NCBI GenBank assembly: GCA_024696635.1
Contig: JAILGP010000174.1
Coordinates: forward strand, 1-56,164
Source: Eubacterium sp.
GTDB lineage: Bacteria; Bacillota; Clostridia; Lachnospirales; Lachnospiraceae
DNA length: 56,164 nt
Direction of reading: 5' to 3'
Shown here one piece after another: positions 44,410 to 56,164 of the stretch; the stretch's first letter is position 1, and every line of letters begins with the position of its first letter. Position numbers and translations under genes: made by a program. The notes beneath the pieces are model-generated. The model did no database searches. It worked only from the letters and a program-made list of their open reading frames with translations, and was not told where the DNA came from.

Positions 44410-45492
44410 TTATTCAAAGAATTTATCTATGCCATCAGCCATTCCACTTACCATTTTTTCCTGGAAGGAGGCATCATTCATCTGACTATCCTCTGTTGGA
44501 TTAGTCATAAAGCCCAGTTCAATCAGTGTAGTTGGTACCTTACTCCAGTTATTTCCTGACATGGTATCAGTTTCCCAGACTCCTCGGTTCTTATAACCAG
44601 TTGCTGAACAATAAGAATTAAGAAGGCATTCAGAAAGTCTCTTGCTTTCAGAATACATTTCTTTAACAAATGCATTATCAGGTGTTATGCATATAGTCAT
44701 GGCACCAGACGCCGAGCTGTTATCAGAACCATCCGCATGAATTCTTATGTAAGCATCCGCATTTTTATCATTTGCCACCTGGGCTCTTTCCATACAGGAA
44801 ATAGCTGTATAGTTATCAGTTCTTGTCATGTATACAGTATAGCCTCTGGATTCAAGCTCAGTCTTAAGCTTTTCTGCCATGGTCATATTGAGCTGGTACT
44901 CATAGATACCTGTGGCAACTCCCTTAGTTCCACCTGAATCCTTAGCCTTTGTTTCTGAAGAACCTGGTCCAAGAGGTTCAGTTCCACTTGCAACCTTAGA
45001 AGAATGTCCAGGATCAATTACTATAACCTTACCAGATGCATTTCCTGATTTCTTAGAAGGATCCCCTACAGACCCATCCTCATTGGTATAATCTTCAATC
45101 CAGACTCCATCCTGTCCTACATAGGACTTTCCTATCCATTTAGAAGTATCCATGTAACCCGAGGATGAAAAATGATACCATTTCTTATCTATCTTAAGCC
45201 ACTGGTTCTGTGGATACCAGGCTCCATCCTGATACCACCAGCCCTTATCATTCTTATTCCATGTACCGTAATAGCCCGATGTATACCAGCCTGAGCTGTT
45301 CATCCAGTATCCATCTATATATTCACTCTTGGCATAGGAGCCGTCAGCAAAACTGTACCACCAGCCCCCATCCGACTTAACCCAGCCCTCATCAGCTGCA
45401 TTTATCCTTAGATTAAAAAAGGAAATTATAATAAGAAGGCCTATTAAAGCACCTATTAAGTTTTTAAATGTTATTTTTATTGATTTAGTCAT
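44410..45492 (-). CDS. N-acetylmuramoyl-L-alanine amidase (Amidase_3) with N-terminal choline/cell-wall-binding-like repeats
   Basis: IVIDPGHSSKVA...YIRIHADGSDNSSASG; N-terminal Trp/Tyr-rich GWWYSFADGSY..GYWMNSSGWYTSGYYGTWNKNDKGWWYQDGAWYPQNQWLKIDKKWYHF. Confidence 0.88.
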   Translation of the reverse strand: MTKSIKITFKNLIGALIGLLIIISFFNLRINAADEGWVKSDGGWWYSFADGSYAKSEYIDGYWMNSSGWYTSGYYGTWNKNDKGWWYQDGAWYPQNQWLKIDKKWYHFSSSGYMDTSKWIGKSYVGQDGVWIEDYTNEDGSVGDPSKKSGNASGKVIVIDPGHSSKVASGTEPLGPGSSETKAKDSGGTKGVATGIYEYQLNMTMAEKLKTELESRGYTVYMTRTDNYTAISCMERAQVANDKNADAYIRIHADGSDNSSASGAMTICITPDNAFVKEMYSESKRLSECLLNSYCSATGYKNRGVWETDTMSGNNWSKVPTTLIELGFMTNPTEDSQMNDASFQEKMVSGMADGIDKFFE

Positions 45493-45551
45493 ATATATAG
45501 CCCTCTTTATTTTCAAGTCTTATTTTTATGCCTTACCAAGCCTTTACCCAA

Positions 45552-48497: not shown

Positions 48498-48532
48498 ATA
48501 AAATCTCCAATCCCATATATGTATTTCTCTAA

Positions 48533-48652
48533 TATTTCAGAATATTTGATATACCAATAAATGCAACATCTTGGATTTAACATTTAACTCTATTATTTCA
48601 AAATATTTGATATACCAATAAATGCAACTACCTAGATTTAAACATTTAATTC
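48533..48652. repeat. About 61-bp imperfect tandem duplication
   Basis: tatttca(g/a)aatatttgatataccaataaatgcaac... present twice. Confidence 0.93.
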
Positions 48653-48735: not shown

Positions 48736-50055
48736 TTAATCATGAAGCTTTCTCTTATCTACAACTCTTACAGCCTTTCCTTCGCTTCTTACAATGGACT
48801 TAGGAGGTAAGAGATGCATCTTAGGTCTGATACCAAGCATTGCTACCATAGCACCAGTAAGATTCTTTCTTGCAGCTTCAAGATCTGAATCCTCTCTCAT
48901 TTCCTTGAACTGTTCCTCTGAAAGCTCAACGTTAATATCAAATGTATCTTCATTACCAATTCTATCAACAAGAATCTGATAGTTTGGAGTATAGCCTGTC
49001 TTAAGAAGAACTGTTTCAATCTGTGATGGGAATACATTTACACCACGAATGATCATCATATCATCTGAACGTCCCTTTGGCTTACACATCTTAATATGTG
49101 TACGTCCACAGATACATTTTTCTCTCTTAAGTACTACAAGATCACGAGTTCTATATCTGAGAAGCGGGAAAGCTTCCTTATCGAGTGATGAGAATACAAG
49201 CTCACCTTCTGTACCCTCTGGAAGAACTTCTCCTGTTTCAGGGTCAATAACCTCAGCATAGAAATGATCCTCATTAATATGCATTCCTGTCTGAGCTTCA
49301 CATTCAAATGAAACGCCAGGTCCACTTATTTCTGTAAGTCCATAGATATCATAAGCCTTAATTCCAAGACTCTGCTCTATAGCATGACGCATCTCCTCTG
49401 TCCAAGGTTCTGCTCCGAAGATACCAGCCTTAAGATTAATATCATCAGCCGTAAGTCCCATATCATGAAGCTTCTCACCTATATATGCAGCATAAGAAGG
49501 TGTACAGCAAAGAATAGTAGAATTAAGATCTCTCATGAACTGAATCTGTCTCTCAGTATTTCCTGAAGACATAGGTATTGTAAGACTTCCTACCTTGTGT
49601 GAACCACCATGAAGTCCAGGACCACCTGTGAAAAGTCCATAGCCATAGCAAACCTGTACTACATCCTTGTTAGACCCACCAGCAGCTACAATAGCTCTCG
49701 CACAACATTCTTCCCATAAATCAACATCGTGCTGTGTATAAAATGCAACTACTCTTCTTCCAGTTGTTCCTGATGTTGACTGAATACGTACACAGTCCTT
49801 AACAGGCTTTGAAAGAAGTCCATATGGATATGCCTCTCTCAGGTCATTTTTTGTAAGGAATGGCAGTTTACTGATATCATCCATGCATGTTATATCATCA
49901 GGTGTTACACCCTTTTCATCCATAAGATTACGATAGTATTCATTATTCTCATAAACATATTTAACCTGCTTAATAAACTTTTCTTCCTGTAATGCCTTTA
50001 ATTTTTCGACAGGCATTGTTTCGATTTCTTCCTGGTAATACATTTTTTTAGCCAT
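48736..50055 (-). CDS. Phenylacetate--CoA ligase family (AMP-dependent)
   Basis: STSGTTGRRVVAFYTQHD; YGLTEISGPGVSFEC; YRTRDLV; start at 50055 (GGAGGAGG upstream), not 50166. Confidence 0.92.
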   Translation of the reverse strand: MAKKMYYQEEIETMPVEKLKALQEEKFIKQVKYVYENNEYYRNLMDEKGVTPDDITCMDDISKLPFLTKNDLREAYPYGLLSKPVKDCVRIQSTSGTTGRRVVAFYTQHDVDLWEECCARAIVAAGGSNKDVVQVCYGYGLFTGGPGLHGGSHKVGSLTIPMSSGNTERQIQFMRDLNSTILCCTPSYAAYIGEKLHDMGLTADDINLKAGIFGAEPWTEEMRHAIEQSLGIKAYDIYGLTEISGPGVSFECEAQTGMHINEDHFYAEVIDPETGEVLPEGTEGELVFSSLDKEAFPLLRYRTRDLVVLKREKCICGRTHIKMCKPKGRSDDMMIIRGVNVFPSQIETVLLKTGYTPNYQILVDRIGNEDTFDINVELSEEQFKEMREDSDLEAARKNLTGAMVAMLGIRPKMHLLPPKSIVRSEGKAVRVVDKRKLHD

Positions 50056-50072
50056 TACTAAACCTCCTCCGG

Positions 50073-50110
50073 CAAAAATATAGGATGGTGAGATTTTTAT
50101 CACACCATCC
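50073..50110 (-). terminator. Terminator-like hairpin in the leader of the phenylacetate-CoA ligase gene
   Basis: Minus strand GGATGGTG-tgataaaaatct-CACCATCC followed by TATATTTTTG. Confidence 0.65.
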
Positions 50111-50128
50111 GTAATTCTAGCACAAACA

Positions 50129-50157
50129 CTTATATTATAAAAGTAATTTTTTGACAA
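50129..50157 (-). promoter_or_regulatory. Sigma-A-like promoter upstream of the phenylacetate-CoA ligase leader
   Basis: Minus strand TTGTCA (50152-50157)-N17-TATAAG (50129-50134). Confidence 0.55.
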
Positions 50158-50336
50158 TATAGTCAATCATCGGTCAGATTTTTAATATTTTATGTCTATT
50201 TTTCATATATCTGATTTTTATATCAAATATATATATATATGACTCAGATTCTACTCATAATCAAATACATTTTTATAATTATATATTCTCTATATCAAGG
50301 CTGATTTTCAAGTGTATGACTATGCCCTTCTATAAT

Positions 50337-51221
50337 CTAATTATGCTTTGCAATCCACTCTTTAGCAGGTACGCCTTCAAATGTAACATCCCCGAAGAAA
50401 TCTATATGATCTGGGAATCTGTCCTTTTCTGGTGGCAGCTGCATATAATCTCCATAATAGTTTCTAAGGGATGAGTCATAATCACCTGGCACGAAGAATT
50501 TTCTTCCCCTTACAGGTAGCTCAGTTCTGGTTTTATACCATTCCTTCCTGTAAATACTATCTGAAATATAGGTTGCAGAAACATTTGACAGAACATAGTA
50601 AGGACATTTCTTGCTCTTCTTATACCTCTTGGATACCTTCTCATACCTTTTGAAAAGACTTTCAAGCGACATAAGTATTCCCATACGACTGAGTATAAAT
50701 ACACCAAGACGTGCAATAGGATTGGAAGGTACATCATAAGTAATTTTATATCTCTTGCTGGTTGCAAATACATAAAGAAGCTTAAGCTCAAATACCTGAA
50801 GCTTTCCCAGGAATCCTCCTGGATAATTATCCATTACGAAAAGGTCTATAAAAAGATGCTGGCAGTGGGTATGGTCGTAGAACCTTGCCTCTCTGTCATC
50901 CTTTTTTAGTGTTACACGTTCATCAAACATTCTTGCAGTATAGTCCCAGAAATATCCATCTGAAGCCTGTGGCACGTGCAGTTTATATGGTGCCATCTCA
51001 TCTTCATGCTGAAGAAACTTTTCAAAATCTTTTCTCTTAAAATAAATATCGATATCATCATCCCATGGAACAAAATCCTTATGTCTTACTGCTCCAATAA
51101 GTGTCCCCGCCTCAAGATAGTAGGTTATATTATACTTTCTGCAGATATCATCCAGCTTACATAGCATTTCAAATTCATACTTGTGAATCTCATCTACTAT
51201 TCTCTGATCACTTTCTTTCAT
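50337..51221 (-). CDS. licD: LicD family phosphocholine transferase-like protein
   Basis: YYLEAGTLIGAVRHKDFVPWDDDIDIYFKRKDFEKFL is the LicD signature. Confidence 0.92.
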   Translation of the reverse strand: MKESDQRIVDEIHKYEFEMLCKLDDICRKYNITYYLEAGTLIGAVRHKDFVPWDDDIDIYFKRKDFEKFLQHEDEMAPYKLHVPQASDGYFWDYTARMFDERVTLKKDDREARFYDHTHCQHLFIDLFVMDNYPGGFLGKLQVFELKLLYVFATSKRYKITYDVPSNPIARLGVFILSRMGILMSLESLFKRYEKVSKRYKKSKKCPYYVLSNVSATYISDSIYRKEWYKTRTELPVRGRKFFVPGDYDSSLRNYYGDYMQLPPEKDRFPDHIDFFGDVTFEGVPAKEWIAKHN

Positions 51222-51444: not shown

Positions 51445-53136
51445 CTATGCCTGTTTTTTCATACTAATATCTGAATTCTTGGATTCAGCTTTGACTTCAG
51501 GTTTACTTTCCGTTACTTCAGGTGCTTCATAGAAGTCTGCCGGTTCCTCATTATTATCAATATATTTTCTAGCATCCTTGATAAAGCTTGCTATTATCAA
51601 AGCAATAACAATACCAACAGGGAAGGCTGCAATTATTGATACTGACTGAATGTTATTCATACTACTATCACTAAAGATAAGAGCTATAGGAAGCAGTATA
51701 AGTAACATAGCCCAGAAAAGCTTCATTTTCTTTGATGCTGTTTCATTTCCCTTCATGTTCTTGTATGAATATGAAGATGCAACAAGTGTGATTGAGTCAA
51801 ATGATGTTGCGTAAAATGCTATCATTGATACAATGAGTACAACAAGTACAAATTGATAACATGGAAGCGTCTTGATAATCTCAATAATTACTGCATAAAG
51901 GTCATAACCATTTGCTTCATAAAGACCGATTGCATCAAACTCTCCACTCATCTGAAGTCCAAGACCGTAATTTCCAAGGATAATGAATGAAATAAGTGTT
52001 GAGAAAAGTCCAAATACATAAGTTCCAAGAATAACCTGCTTTACTGTACGTCCTCTTGAGATATTTCCCATGAAGAATGGAGCGGCTACACACCATACTA
52101 ACCAATATGCCCAGTAGTACATTGTCCAGTTCTGTGGGAATCCATTTTCTCTAAGCGAGTCTGTGTATGTACTAAGAATTGGGAAGTTCTGAACTACAAG
52201 ACCAAGTGATGTAAATCCATTTTCAAGTATGTAAACTGTCTTACCACCAAATGCAAGTACAAATATAAGAAGTACACCAAAGAGTACCATGCAAATCTTT
52301 GAAAGGTTGTTAACACCCTTCATACCTATCATTACTGATGTAGTATAAGTAGCACATGTTATAAGGAGTATTCCGATAGTTACCCACTTTGAATACTCAA
52401 TACCAAAAAGTGTTGTAAGCGCGCTTCCAAGAAGTGGTGTTGCTACACTGAATGTTGTTGCTGTTCCTGCTATAAGAGCAATAACTGCAAGTATATCTAT
52501 GATCTTTCCAGGAATTCCATCTACATGCTTTCCAAGAAGTGGACGACAAGCTTCACTATACTTCTGCTTCTTACTTCCTCTAACGTGAATCATAAATCCA
52601 AAGCAAGCTGCAAGTACTGCATAAAAGCTCCATACGATTGGTCCCCAGTGATAAAGAGGAATTGCATTTGCCCAATCATTTATTGAACCAAGCTCCTGAA
52701 CTCTAGGCTCTTCTGCATAATATATCCATTCACAGAATGAATAGAAAAGAATATCAGCAGCAAGTCCACAACAGAAAACCATGGCTCCCCATGAGAAGAA
52801 TCCATACTTAGGCTTCTCTGTCTTTCCTCCAAGTCTCACCTTTCCAATATCTGAAAACGCGAGATAAAGTGATATAAGAAATATACCAAGAGCTACAATC
52901 AGATAATAAAGACCAAGCTCAGTTCCAAGGAAGTTTCTGATTACTGATAATACATTAGTAGAACCTTCCGGGTTGATAATAAAGATACTGCAAAGAATTA
53001 CAAGAATTATAAGTGGAATAATTGTAGTGGATGGATCGATTTTTCTTTTCTCCTTAGCCACATCCTTTGCAGCCGTTACATTTTCTGTAACTACCTTTTC
53101 ATTACTCTTTCCTTCTGAGTTATGTTTCTTACTCAT
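51445..53136 (-). CDS. BCCT family (betaine/carnitine/choline) transporter
   Basis: FFSWGAMVFCCGLAADILFYSFCEWIYY; HWGPIVWSFYAVLAACFGFMIH; MYYWAYWLVWCVAAPFFMGNISRGRTVKQVILG. Confidence 0.95.
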   Translation of the reverse strand: MSKKHNSEGKSNEKVVTENVTAAKDVAKEKRKIDPSTTIIPLIILVILCSIFIINPEGSTNVLSVIRNFLGTELGLYYLIVALGIFLISLYLAFSDIGKVRLGGKTEKPKYGFFSWGAMVFCCGLAADILFYSFCEWIYYAEEPRVQELGSINDWANAIPLYHWGPIVWSFYAVLAACFGFMIHVRGSKKQKYSEACRPLLGKHVDGIPGKIIDILAVIALIAGTATTFSVATPLLGSALTTLFGIEYSKWVTIGILLITCATYTTSVMIGMKGVNNLSKICMVLFGVLLIFVLAFGGKTVYILENGFTSLGLVVQNFPILSTYTDSLRENGFPQNWTMYYWAYWLVWCVAAPFFMGNISRGRTVKQVILGTYVFGLFSTLISFIILGNYGLGLQMSGEFDAIGLYEANGYDLYAVIIEIIKTLPCYQFVLVVLIVSMIAFYATSFDSITLVASSYSYKNMKGNETASKKMKLFWAMLLILLPIALIFSDSSMNNIQSVSIIAAFPVGIVIALIIASFIKDARKYIDNNEEPADFYEAPEVTESKPEVKAESKNSDISMKKQA

Positions 53137-53193: not shown

Positions 53194-53922
53194 TTACTTA
53201 TAACCTTCGTAGCTCTTATCATAAGCTACCAGCTCGGCAAAGCTGTCTATCTCAACCACGTCACCCTTATCCATAGGTGTGACTCCAAGCTTAAAACCAT
53301 CAAAATGCTGAAACATAGGCACATCATCCCAATAGAGATGACGATTTCCCGCATGGTCGAATTCGTATTCCAGATATCTTCTAAGCTTGTGACTGTCCTC
53401 TGATGACCATCTTGATATGGAGAAAAGTATCCAGCCTTTATCGCCACCATTTCTGCTGCAGGATGTAACTATTCCCTGATCATTTACCTGCATAAGCCAT
53501 TCATCTGTCCCATCCTCTGTCCAGATACCGCTGTAGCCTGACCTTTCAAAATCAGCATGAAGTATCTCGGGATTACTTATAACCAGATCTCCATCAAGTA
53601 TCATGCACTCTCCCATATCAAGCACTCGTCTTGCAGCATATAAGGAAGAAATGTTATTGTACTCGGTATAAAACTGGTTTGATACAAGATGAATATTCGG
53701 ATATTTATCCTTTAGTTCAACAAACTTCTCCATCATATATCCTGTAACGATATATATATCATTTATCCCATTTACATGAAGGGCATCGATTATTGTATCA
53801 ATCATTCTTACCCCATGAACCTTAACCAAAGGCTTAGGTATATCATTTGTCACAGGTGCAAGTCTTTCGCCCTTTCCGGCAGCCATAATTATTGCATGTT
53901 TTATACTATGCATAGCTTTCAC
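53194..53922 (-). CDS. NTP transferase, phosphocholine cytidylyltransferase-like (LicC type)
   Basis: AIIMAAGKGERLAPVTNDIPKPLVKVHGVRMIDTIIDAL; 4-nt overlap with the upstream gene. Confidence 0.88.
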   Translation of the reverse strand: MKAMHSIKHAIIMAAGKGERLAPVTNDIPKPLVKVHGVRMIDTIIDALHVNGINDIYIVTGYMMEKFVELKDKYPNIHLVSNQFYTEYNNISSLYAARRVLDMGECMILDGDLVISNPEILHADFERSGYSGIWTEDGTDEWLMQVNDQGIVTSCSRNGGDKGWILFSISRWSSEDSHKLRRYLEYEFDHAGNRHLYWDDVPMFQHFDGFKLGVTPMDKGDVVEIDSFAELVAYDKSYEGYK

Positions 53923-55730
53923 ATTCTCTCCTTGGCCAGTTTATAATAATCCTTGGCATATCTATATTGCCTTAGGGAATATTCTCCAAAGTCAACTCCC
54001 AGGCCTCTTTTATATTCACACCAATTACTCCAGAGAAGTCCGCACATTGATATATATACATATATTCTTGTTCGAATATCCTCATCTGTTTTCTGACCAC
54101 CAACAGCAAAATATGTATCAATAAGATTATCCACATGGTCTTTATCATACATTGAATAGATTGAGAACATTGCAAGGTCTACATATCTATCCTGCATGCC
54201 TGCGTATTCCCAGTCTATAAGCTGAATCTTTATATGATCCTTTTTCATATTTTTCCCAGCAGCTTCAGACTTTTCAATTATCATGAAATTATCAGGTACT
54301 GAATCTATATGGGCAAGTCCCATGCTTATATCCTGTCCATCTATATAATCCTTAAGTGAAAGGACCTTTTCCTTTGTATCCTGGTAATCTCTATAAACTG
54401 AACTAGCACCATTCCAGAGCTTTTCGTAATAATCAATATGTGCAAAGATATCAAATGTATGTGGTACTGAAAGCTTCATATCATGGAAATCCCTAAGCTT
54501 CTTCATACACATTTCTATATCACCCTGATCAAGGGGATCACAGTTTCTTGAATTATCTATAAACTTAGTTATCTTATAACCATTATCAGCATTAAGATAT
54601 ACATTATCATCACAGATTCCCTTGCCCTTTATAGCATCATATACATCTGCTTCCATATGTCTATCTATCAGCTTGCTTGTTCCTTCTCCAGGAATTCTCA
54701 TGATATATTTATCATCCTTACAAGTAAAGAGAAATGACCTATTAGTCATACCCTTCTTAAGAACTGTAATATTCTTTATCCCTGATACATTAACTCCCAG
54801 TTCCTCAGCCGCAACCCTTATTGCATCATTTTCAAGGTTTCTGCTTTCGCTATCAAGCTCTCTCAGCTGTTCATAGGTGTTAACCTCTGTTGTCTTTGTA
54901 TGGTCAACTACCTTTGCATTCAAGTACATACGATCCTTCCTAAATGCAGCATCCTCCCAGAAGGATTCATCATTAAGAGGGTTCTTATCCATTTCCAAAA
55001 GCATGTTTTTCAGAATCTCAGTTTCCTCACCACATACATAGGAAATGCCAATCATTCTATTTCCAATCTTGTCCAGGTCATCCCTCTTCTTTTCATCAAC
55101 AACCTTTACAAGTTCTGCTTTTCTGTTAACTCTTATCCAGCTGTCTTCATCCAGCACATCACTGACCATATACCAGGAATAGACTTCCTTTTCAGAAAAT
55201 GGATTATTCTCACTCCATATATCACAGGGAACTATATAAGTCCTATCCAGTCTGTCAGCTGCAAGAGCAAGTGAATGAAGATTATTCTTTGAGGCATAAT
55301 CATTATTGTAGATCATATTAATATCATACTTATCTACCAGGTAGTCGTACTGTTCCATCATAAAACCAACAATCATTGTTATATCCTTGATTCCCACCTG
55401 GTGAAGATGCTCTATAGTTCTTTCTATAAGCGGAACCCCATCAACTGTAAGAAGTCCCTTAGGAGTTTCTGTATTTATTGGAACCATTCTCATTCCATAG
55501 CCCGCAGCAAGTATAACTGCATTCTTTGGGCTACGTTCTTCAATATAATCCCTTCCCTTTTTAGTAAGCTTATTATCCTGATCAAGCATACCTTCCTCTA
55601 TAAGAGAATTAATGGATTTATTTACAGAACCAATAGAATAACCAGATTGTTCCATCAGCTTCCTTTGATTCACAAATCCAAAGCTTTGAATTGTAAGTAA
55701 AATATCCTTATCAATAATAGATATATTCAT
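53919..55730 (-). CDS. Fusion protein: N-terminal winged HTH + LicC-like nucleotidyltransferase + LicA-like choline kinase
   Basis: IQSFGFVNQRKLMEQSGYSIGSVNKSINSLIEEGMLDQ (wHTH); AVILAAGYGMRMVPINTETPKGLL (NTase); MGLAHIDSVPDNFMI...IQLIDWEYAGMQDRYVDLAMF (APH/ChoK). Confidence 0.92.
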   Translation of the reverse strand: MNISIIDKDILLTIQSFGFVNQRKLMEQSGYSIGSVNKSINSLIEEGMLDQDNKLTKKGRDYIEERSPKNAVILAAGYGMRMVPINTETPKGLLTVDGVPLIERTIEHLHQVGIKDITMIVGFMMEQYDYLVDKYDINMIYNNDYASKNNLHSLALAADRLDRTYIVPCDIWSENNPFSEKEVYSWYMVSDVLDEDSWIRVNRKAELVKVVDEKKRDDLDKIGNRMIGISYVCGEETEILKNMLLEMDKNPLNDESFWEDAAFRKDRMYLNAKVVDHTKTTEVNTYEQLRELDSESRNLENDAIRVAAEELGVNVSGIKNITVLKKGMTNRSFLFTCKDDKYIMRIPGEGTSKLIDRHMEADVYDAIKGKGICDDNVYLNADNGYKITKFIDNSRNCDPLDQGDIEMCMKKLRDFHDMKLSVPHTFDIFAHIDYYEKLWNGASSVYRDYQDTKEKVLSLKDYIDGQDISMGLAHIDSVPDNFMIIEKSEAAGKNMKKDHIKIQLIDWEYAGMQDRYVDLAMFSIYSMYDKDHVDNLIDTYFAVGGQKTDEDIRTRIYVYISMCGLLWSNWCEYKRGLGVDFGEYSLRQYRYAKDYYKLAKERM

Positions 55731-55749
55731 AATGTCTATCCTTTGTTTT

Positions 55750-55838
55750 GTTCACGAAAATCCAATCTGTTCATTTACAAGAACGGATTATACGACTATG
55801 TTTTCTTCGTGTCAATAGCAAATTCAATTTTCGTGAAC
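55750..55838 (-). promoter_or_regulatory. lic operon promoter with nested inverted repeats (candidate operators)
   Basis: TTGACA (55810-55815)-N17-TATAAT (55787-55792) on the minus strand; outer 12-bp IR 55750-55761/55827-55838; inner IR 55764-55772/55781-55789. Confidence 0.85.
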
Positions 55839-55914
55839 ATTATTTTTTTTAATCTTCTGAAAATTCATGAAAATATAGTTAAATTGTTATTCATAATCCT
55901 CTATTCTTTCTGTT

Positions 55915-55997: not shown

Positions 55998-56164
55998 GGC
56001 AAACAATTCGCTTAATTTCCGGTCTTTTGTTTGCCTTTTCTCTTTTTCCAAGAAGCTTTCAAACTGTAAAGGCAAACAATTTGCTTAATTTCCGGTCTTT
56101 TGTTTGCCTTTTCTCTTTTTCCAACAAGCTTTCAAGCTGTAAAGGCAAACAATTTGCTTGATTT
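55998..56164. repeat. 73-bp tandem repeat (2.3 copies, runs off the window)
   Basis: 55998-56070, 56071-56143, 56144-56164 partial; each full copy contains the dyad ggcaaacaa/ttgtttgcc. Confidence 0.95.

Follow-up and report, generated by a model that had tools for sequence, protein, structure and literature searches.

Why would a choline kinase carry a DNA-binding domain? The question is raised by a single reading frame of 603 aa in the window (the whole stretch of DNA analysed, 56,164 nucleotides), which an earlier note had divided into a winged helix-turn-helix (HTH), a LicC-like nucleotidyltransferase (NTase) and a LicA-like choline kinase, with the suggestion that choline activation is thereby coupled to transcription.

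A three-module protein heading a phosphocholine gene run

The frame is open on the minus strand from an ATG at 55730 to a stop at 53919, and the plus strand across 53919-55730 is rich in stops. Three Pfam families lie along the protein above their cut-offs: HTH_24 at residues 5-48 (E 1.8e-7; 31.1 bits against a gathering cut-off of 21.9), NTP_transf_3 at residues 71-171 (E 7.9e-14) and Choline_kinase at residues 322-526 (E 8.9e-16). In a sequence search the nearest solved structures, LicC (1jyk, 2.7e-25) and LicA (4r77, 1.2e-22) of Streptococcus pneumoniae, matched separate stretches. The winged HTH was assigned to residues 1-66 (55533..55730, minus strand), the LicC-like domain to residues 69-294 (54849..55526, minus) and the LicA-like kinase to residues 311-603 (53922..54800, minus). 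From 56 sequences AlphaFold produced a model with a mean pLDDT of 91.5 and high confidence for all three modules; its top Foldseek matches were LicA (4r7b/4r77) and LicC (1jyk/1jyl). Residues 5-66 are modelled as a winged HTH, with helices at 5-17, 22-29 and 33-45, a wing and a helix at 57-66, at a pLDDT of about 95. The earlier note had held that its reading would fall if residues 1-70 formed no HTH fold; since HTH_24 is matched and the helices are modelled, that test does not speak against it, and the three-module division holds.

The fusion heads a run of minus-strand genes. It is followed, with an overlap of 4 nt, by a stand-alone LicC-like NTase of 242 aa with a GTG start (53194..53922; 1jyk, E 3.5e-29), then by a BCCT-family (choline/betaine/carnitine) transporter (51445..53136; Pfam BCCT 1.4e-126) and a LicD-family phosphocholine transferase (50337..51221; Pfam LicD 9.7e-35). 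The run is of lic type but has no LicB-type choline permease, in whose place Pfam identifies the BCCT protein, likely a functional substitute. The lic1 and lic2 loci for phosphocholine decoration likewise group a kinase and a cytidylyltransferase with a transporter and LicD; the window locus differs from them in its putative regulator fusion, its BCCT transporter and its dedicated candidate operator. The pneumococcal LicA and LicC, although the nearest solved relatives of the enzyme domains, are separate proteins without an HTH, and uptake there is by LicB.

The order fusion, NTase, BCCT, LicD, PaaK is kept in the closest relatives (76-80% identity). The last of these genes, encoding a PaaK-like phenylacetate-CoA ligase (48736-50166, minus strand), also occurs after LicD in three close relatives. 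A terminator-like hairpin (48703-48673) lies 3' of it, and two 61-bp direct repeats, 88% identical, occupy 48527-48649 between it and a C39 peptidase gene.

The HTH-NTase-kinase architecture recurs in many genera at 35-80% identity; thus, the fusion is not an assembly artefact. The family, for whose spread the earlier note had proposed a search, proved widespread: matches came from 100 of 299 genomes of the organism's own taxonomic family, the strong ones being mostly full length, and from 17 of 196 at the order level (stricter cut-off) and 4 of 300 at the phylum level. Carriers include Fusicatenibacter saccharivorans, Faecalibacterium prausnitzii, Dorea, Butyrivibrio, Anaerococcus hydrogenalis, Streptococcus porci and several lactobacilli, along with MAGs labelled Erysipelotrichaceae, Coriobacteriales and Treponemataceae, labels that may be wrong. 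Two-module HTH-NTase proteins without a kinase were also seen (L099:5388-6317 and L100:4271-5182); neither has a TGTTCA dyad of the kind described below, and one lies close to LicD and further NTase genes.

Active sites of the kinase and the two nucleotidyltransferases

The catalytic and choline-cage residues of LicA (PMC4364537) are all retained: T29, D176, N181 and D194 and the aromatic box Y197, W251, W254 and Y268 are identical in the window fusion. At LicA E213 the fusion has Y. The fused NTase is a different case. Throughout the window's clade it keeps the NTP-binding and metal residues (GxGxR, PK, D107 and E216, in 89-90 of 90 sequences), while D105 has become P (90/90), W136, which presumably contacts choline, S (87/90), D192 E (90/90) and D218 N (83/90). 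The stand-alone group retains all four (D105 in 63, W136 in 71, D192 in 68 and D218 in 71 of 72), and the protein encoded at 53194-53922 has the LicC pocket and metal residues complete. The roles of D105, D192 and E216 in LicC are taken from PMC6697681, whose text mentions an aromatic box alongside D105 and D192.

These counts bear on a rival account of the protein, in which it is an ordinary bifunctional LicC-LicA enzyme producing CDP-choline, with regulation as a minor side role. The preserved NTP and metal residues would suit such an enzyme, as would the fusions of group B, most of which keep T133/W136 and have no adjoining stand-alone NTase in the loci read. In the window's clade, however, the phosphocholine-pocket residues are replaced and an intact LicC-like gene nearly always comes next, which makes this account unlikely. 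That the fused NTase is the pathway's LicC, as the earlier reading implied, finds no support in this clade; the stand-alone protein is likely its CTP:phosphocholine cytidylyltransferase. With the pocket lost in one protein and kept in its neighbour, the window fusion is probably a choline kinase and repressor with an NTase-like sensor or remnant, rather than a LicC-LicA enzyme. Given that group B keeps T133/W136 without a stand-alone NTase, the trifunctional form may be the older one, from which the window's clade would have moved the cytidylyl step to a separate protein.

One relative has gone further. In the fusion L160:3696-5513, LicA T29, D176 and N181 are replaced by L, N and K, and the choline aromatic box, the HTH and the operator described below are intact, a pattern expected of a choline-sensing repressor.

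A paired inverted box at promoters and start codons

Regions upstream of fusions were scored, alignment-free, for TGTTCA-N24/25-TGAACA with at most two mismatches. Of 129 HTH-bearing fusions, 108 have an inverted repeat TGTTCACGAA-N16/17-TTCGTGAACA at their promoter or start codon: 71 of 77 in group A, 32 of 36 in group B and 5 of 16 among distant fusions. About half of the 21 without a recognisable dyad belong to the distant group C. Across 1.44 Mb of fusion loci there were 130 sites scoring at least 11/12, 106 of them at fusion starts; the reversed pattern gave 2. The histogram of spacings has its maximum at 24/25. In four distant fusions (L131, L132, L133, L134) a compact TGTTCA-N5-TGAACA or a variant of it replaces the 36-37 bp dyad. 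Box centres are 30-31 bp apart (about three turns) or 11 bp apart (one turn), which places both boxes on one face of the DNA.

In the window itself, the fusion gene is preceded by a sigma-A promoter matching consensus at 12 of 12 positions (TTGACA-17-TATAAT; 55787..55815, minus strand; −35 at 55815-55810, −10 at 55792-55787). Two candidate operator dyads adjoin it. The upstream one (55804..55839, minus) has a perfect left arm, TGTTCACGAAAAT at 55839-55827, and a degenerate right arm beside the −35; its counterpart in L238 scores 11/12. The downstream one (55749..55785, minus; 37 bp) begins 1 nt past the −10 and consists of a degenerate left arm CGTTCTTGTA, N17 and a perfect right arm TTCGTGAACA, with three mismatches to the full dyad. 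Taken singly, each dyad scores 10/12, a value reached by 11 of 100 shuffles and so not beyond chance; a motif search of the window allowing three mismatches stayed at chance level, and a single half-site with one mismatch was unspecific (12 matches against 27 for the control). The case for an operator here is made instead by the outer arms, exact inverted 13-mers (TGTTCACGAAAAT) that flank the promoter 85 bp apart (about eight turns), and by the footprint in relatives: L161, L162 and L238 share the downstream dyad and the −10 with the window, although the DNA around both has diverged. On these grounds we regard the two dyads as putative operators. Further upstream, at 55998-56164, a 73-bp tandem repeat (95% identical, with inverted GGCAAACAA/TTGTTTGCC) runs past the contig end.

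In orthologues, the first box typically lies about 29-30 nt before the start codon and the TGAACA of its inverted partner includes the ATG. This arrangement might suggest an RNA element, in which TGTTCA and TGAACA pair within the 5' UTR and hide the ribosome binding site or start codon, the HTH being incidental; indeed, most group A genes share their start codon with the right arm (ATGAACA) and have the ribosome binding site between the two arms. Pairing is nevertheless poorly compatible with the sites themselves. Position 7 of the left arm is C in 41 of 56 start-overlapping sites, where its partner is an A fixed by the ATG (a C.A mismatch), and in sites whose right arm does not touch the start codon it reverts to C in 12 of 15, which is the behaviour of a DNA motif. 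Moreover, the window's upstream dyad has its left arm ahead of the promoter, in untranscribed DNA, the distant group has the compact palindrome, and no Rfam match was obtained. We therefore consider an RNA element very improbable.

Presence of the dyad follows presence of the HTH. None of seven fusions lacking the HTH had a dyad by the same criterion, against 108 of 129 HTH-bearing ones (Fisher p 8e-6, uncorrected for kinship and with a small HTH-less sample). L126, L127 and L129, which have 70-90 extra N-terminal residues unrecognised by the HMM, were omitted from this comparison. Four of the HTH-less proteins are close relatives (L207, L211 (Blautia caecimuris), L226 and L231). They keep the NTase-kinase and the following stand-alone NTase, three of them have a BCCT neighbour (the fourth contig ends first), and their genes are positioned behind others; neither an HTH in any nearby frame nor a dyad was found. 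The dyad was likewise absent from the three distant cases. On the tree, HTH was lost about five times, and three to five of the five paired comparisons go in the same direction and none in the opposite one, a set too few by itself for significance.

Some other transcription factor could in principle bind the dyad, leaving the fused HTH for oligomerisation or as a vestige. Binding by the fusion's own HTH is something that we infer, and a small number of choline kinase operons do without it. Yet loss of the HTH coincides with loss of the operator, and the recognition helix (S-LG-VN-S) is the best-conserved part of the HTH domain among relatives, with Q22, R23, G34 and N37 invariant. The operator also persists after transfer between phyla: the dyad is retained in the copies from Streptococcus porci, lactobacilli and the coriobacterial and Treponemataceae MAGs, whose sole common DNA-binding protein is the fusion, so that the cognate regulator appears to travel with the operon. 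A separate factor thus seems improbable, and the fusion is preferred as the protein that would bind these sites.

Candidate targets in trans and a proposed NadR-like scheme

A pattern search of the 3.15-Mb genome for the dyad located exact copies outside coding sequence in two places only, both apart from the fusion. Each sits immediately past a −10, in one case that of a second choline kinase and BCCT pair (on C58), in the other that of a stand-alone LicC-like gene (on C135). A third exact copy (C3:13181) falls inside a 1011-aa ORF and was taken as chance. Among stand-alone kinase operons the dyad was seen only in this genome, in which trans action of the fusion is possible. Elsewhere, trans sites precede a separate BCCT gene (L093) and SSF symporters beside distant fusions (L089, L121). 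At L087:3786-3898, two exact dyads stand before an ABC permease pair in a genome that has a group B fusion elsewhere.

We think it likely that the fusion is an enzyme of the NadR kind acting as its own repressor for a choline regulon, with ligand-set binding to a two-box operator. Its C-terminal domain would phosphorylate choline, and its winged HTH would bind the paired inverted boxes TGTTCACGAA ... TTCGTGAACA, whose centres are about three helical turns apart. These boxes lie across promoters or start codons, both in its own operon and at further choline genes of the genome, and the protein bound there would block transcription; overlap with the −10/+1 region or the start codon is what implies repression. 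DNA binding would depend on a ligand held by the enzyme domains, be it choline, phosphocholine or a cytidine nucleotide, with a sign that the scheme leaves free; the choline cage kept intact in the pseudokinase L160 inclines us towards choline or phosphocholine. In the window's clade the cytidylyltransferase step would have passed to the adjacent stand-alone LicC-like protein, the central NTase-like domain now being probably sensory or structural. Coupling of a regulator to choline activation, as first suggested, is strongly supported by comparison, through the conserved operators, the joint loss of HTH and operator and the trans targets; its sensor function and DNA binding are still what we infer. 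More tentatively, and with somewhat less than even confidence, the retired cytidylyltransferase may have become a nucleotide or CDP-choline sensor and the kinase pocket may double as a choline sensor, with relatives such as L160 as pseudoenzyme repressors. If so, a single polypeptide would read both substrate and product of the pathway and repress through a two-box operator.

NadR of Enterobacterales consists of an HTH, an NMN adenylyltransferase and a ribosylnicotinamide kinase and represses synthesis, salvage and uptake genes; orthologues without the HTH exist as enzymes only (PMC12421817). The fusion's module types follow one another as in NadR (DNA-binding, nucleotidyltransferase, small-molecule kinase), and by comparison across genomes it has a putative operator in front of pathway genes. 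It differs in that its enzymes are of the LicC-like NTase and choline kinase families, not homologues of the NadR ones, its pathway is that of phosphocholine, its putative operator is made of TGTTCACGAA pairs 30-31 bp apart, and its NTase pocket is eroded in the clade. By analogy, therefore, it would work like NadR with unrelated enzymes without being a NadR, and would represent a second independent use of that plan. BirA, which carries an N-terminal winged HTH, has the enzyme-repressor plan proposed here with a different enzyme. This bifunctional biotin protein ligase is described as an enzyme that also represses the genes for synthesis and import in its pathway (PMC7235819).

Enzyme-repressor fusions as such are known; no description of this enzyme pair, operator and regulon came up in the literature searched. 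InterPro has entries for LicCA-type fusions. Searches of papers outside subscription journals brought up neither a LicC-LicA nor an HTH-choline kinase fusion, which is weak evidence of absence, and the words fusion, HTH and BCCT are absent from a 2023 survey of phosphorylcholine genes (PMC10434233). A putative regulator, its operator and its regulon come here in one testable package, and the natural series of trifunctional, NTase-eroded, HTH-less and pseudokinase forms lends itself to the study of how enzymes become transcription factors. Surface phosphocholine affects host-protein binding, and choline is a contested gut nutrient; the literature searched yielded no regulator dedicated to phosphocholine decoration in these gut anaerobes. 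The window also encodes an N-acetylmuramoyl-L-alanine amidase (Amidase_3) with choline-binding repeats (44410-45516, minus strand), a likely user of surface phosphocholine, consistent with phosphocholine on the organism's own surface polymers.
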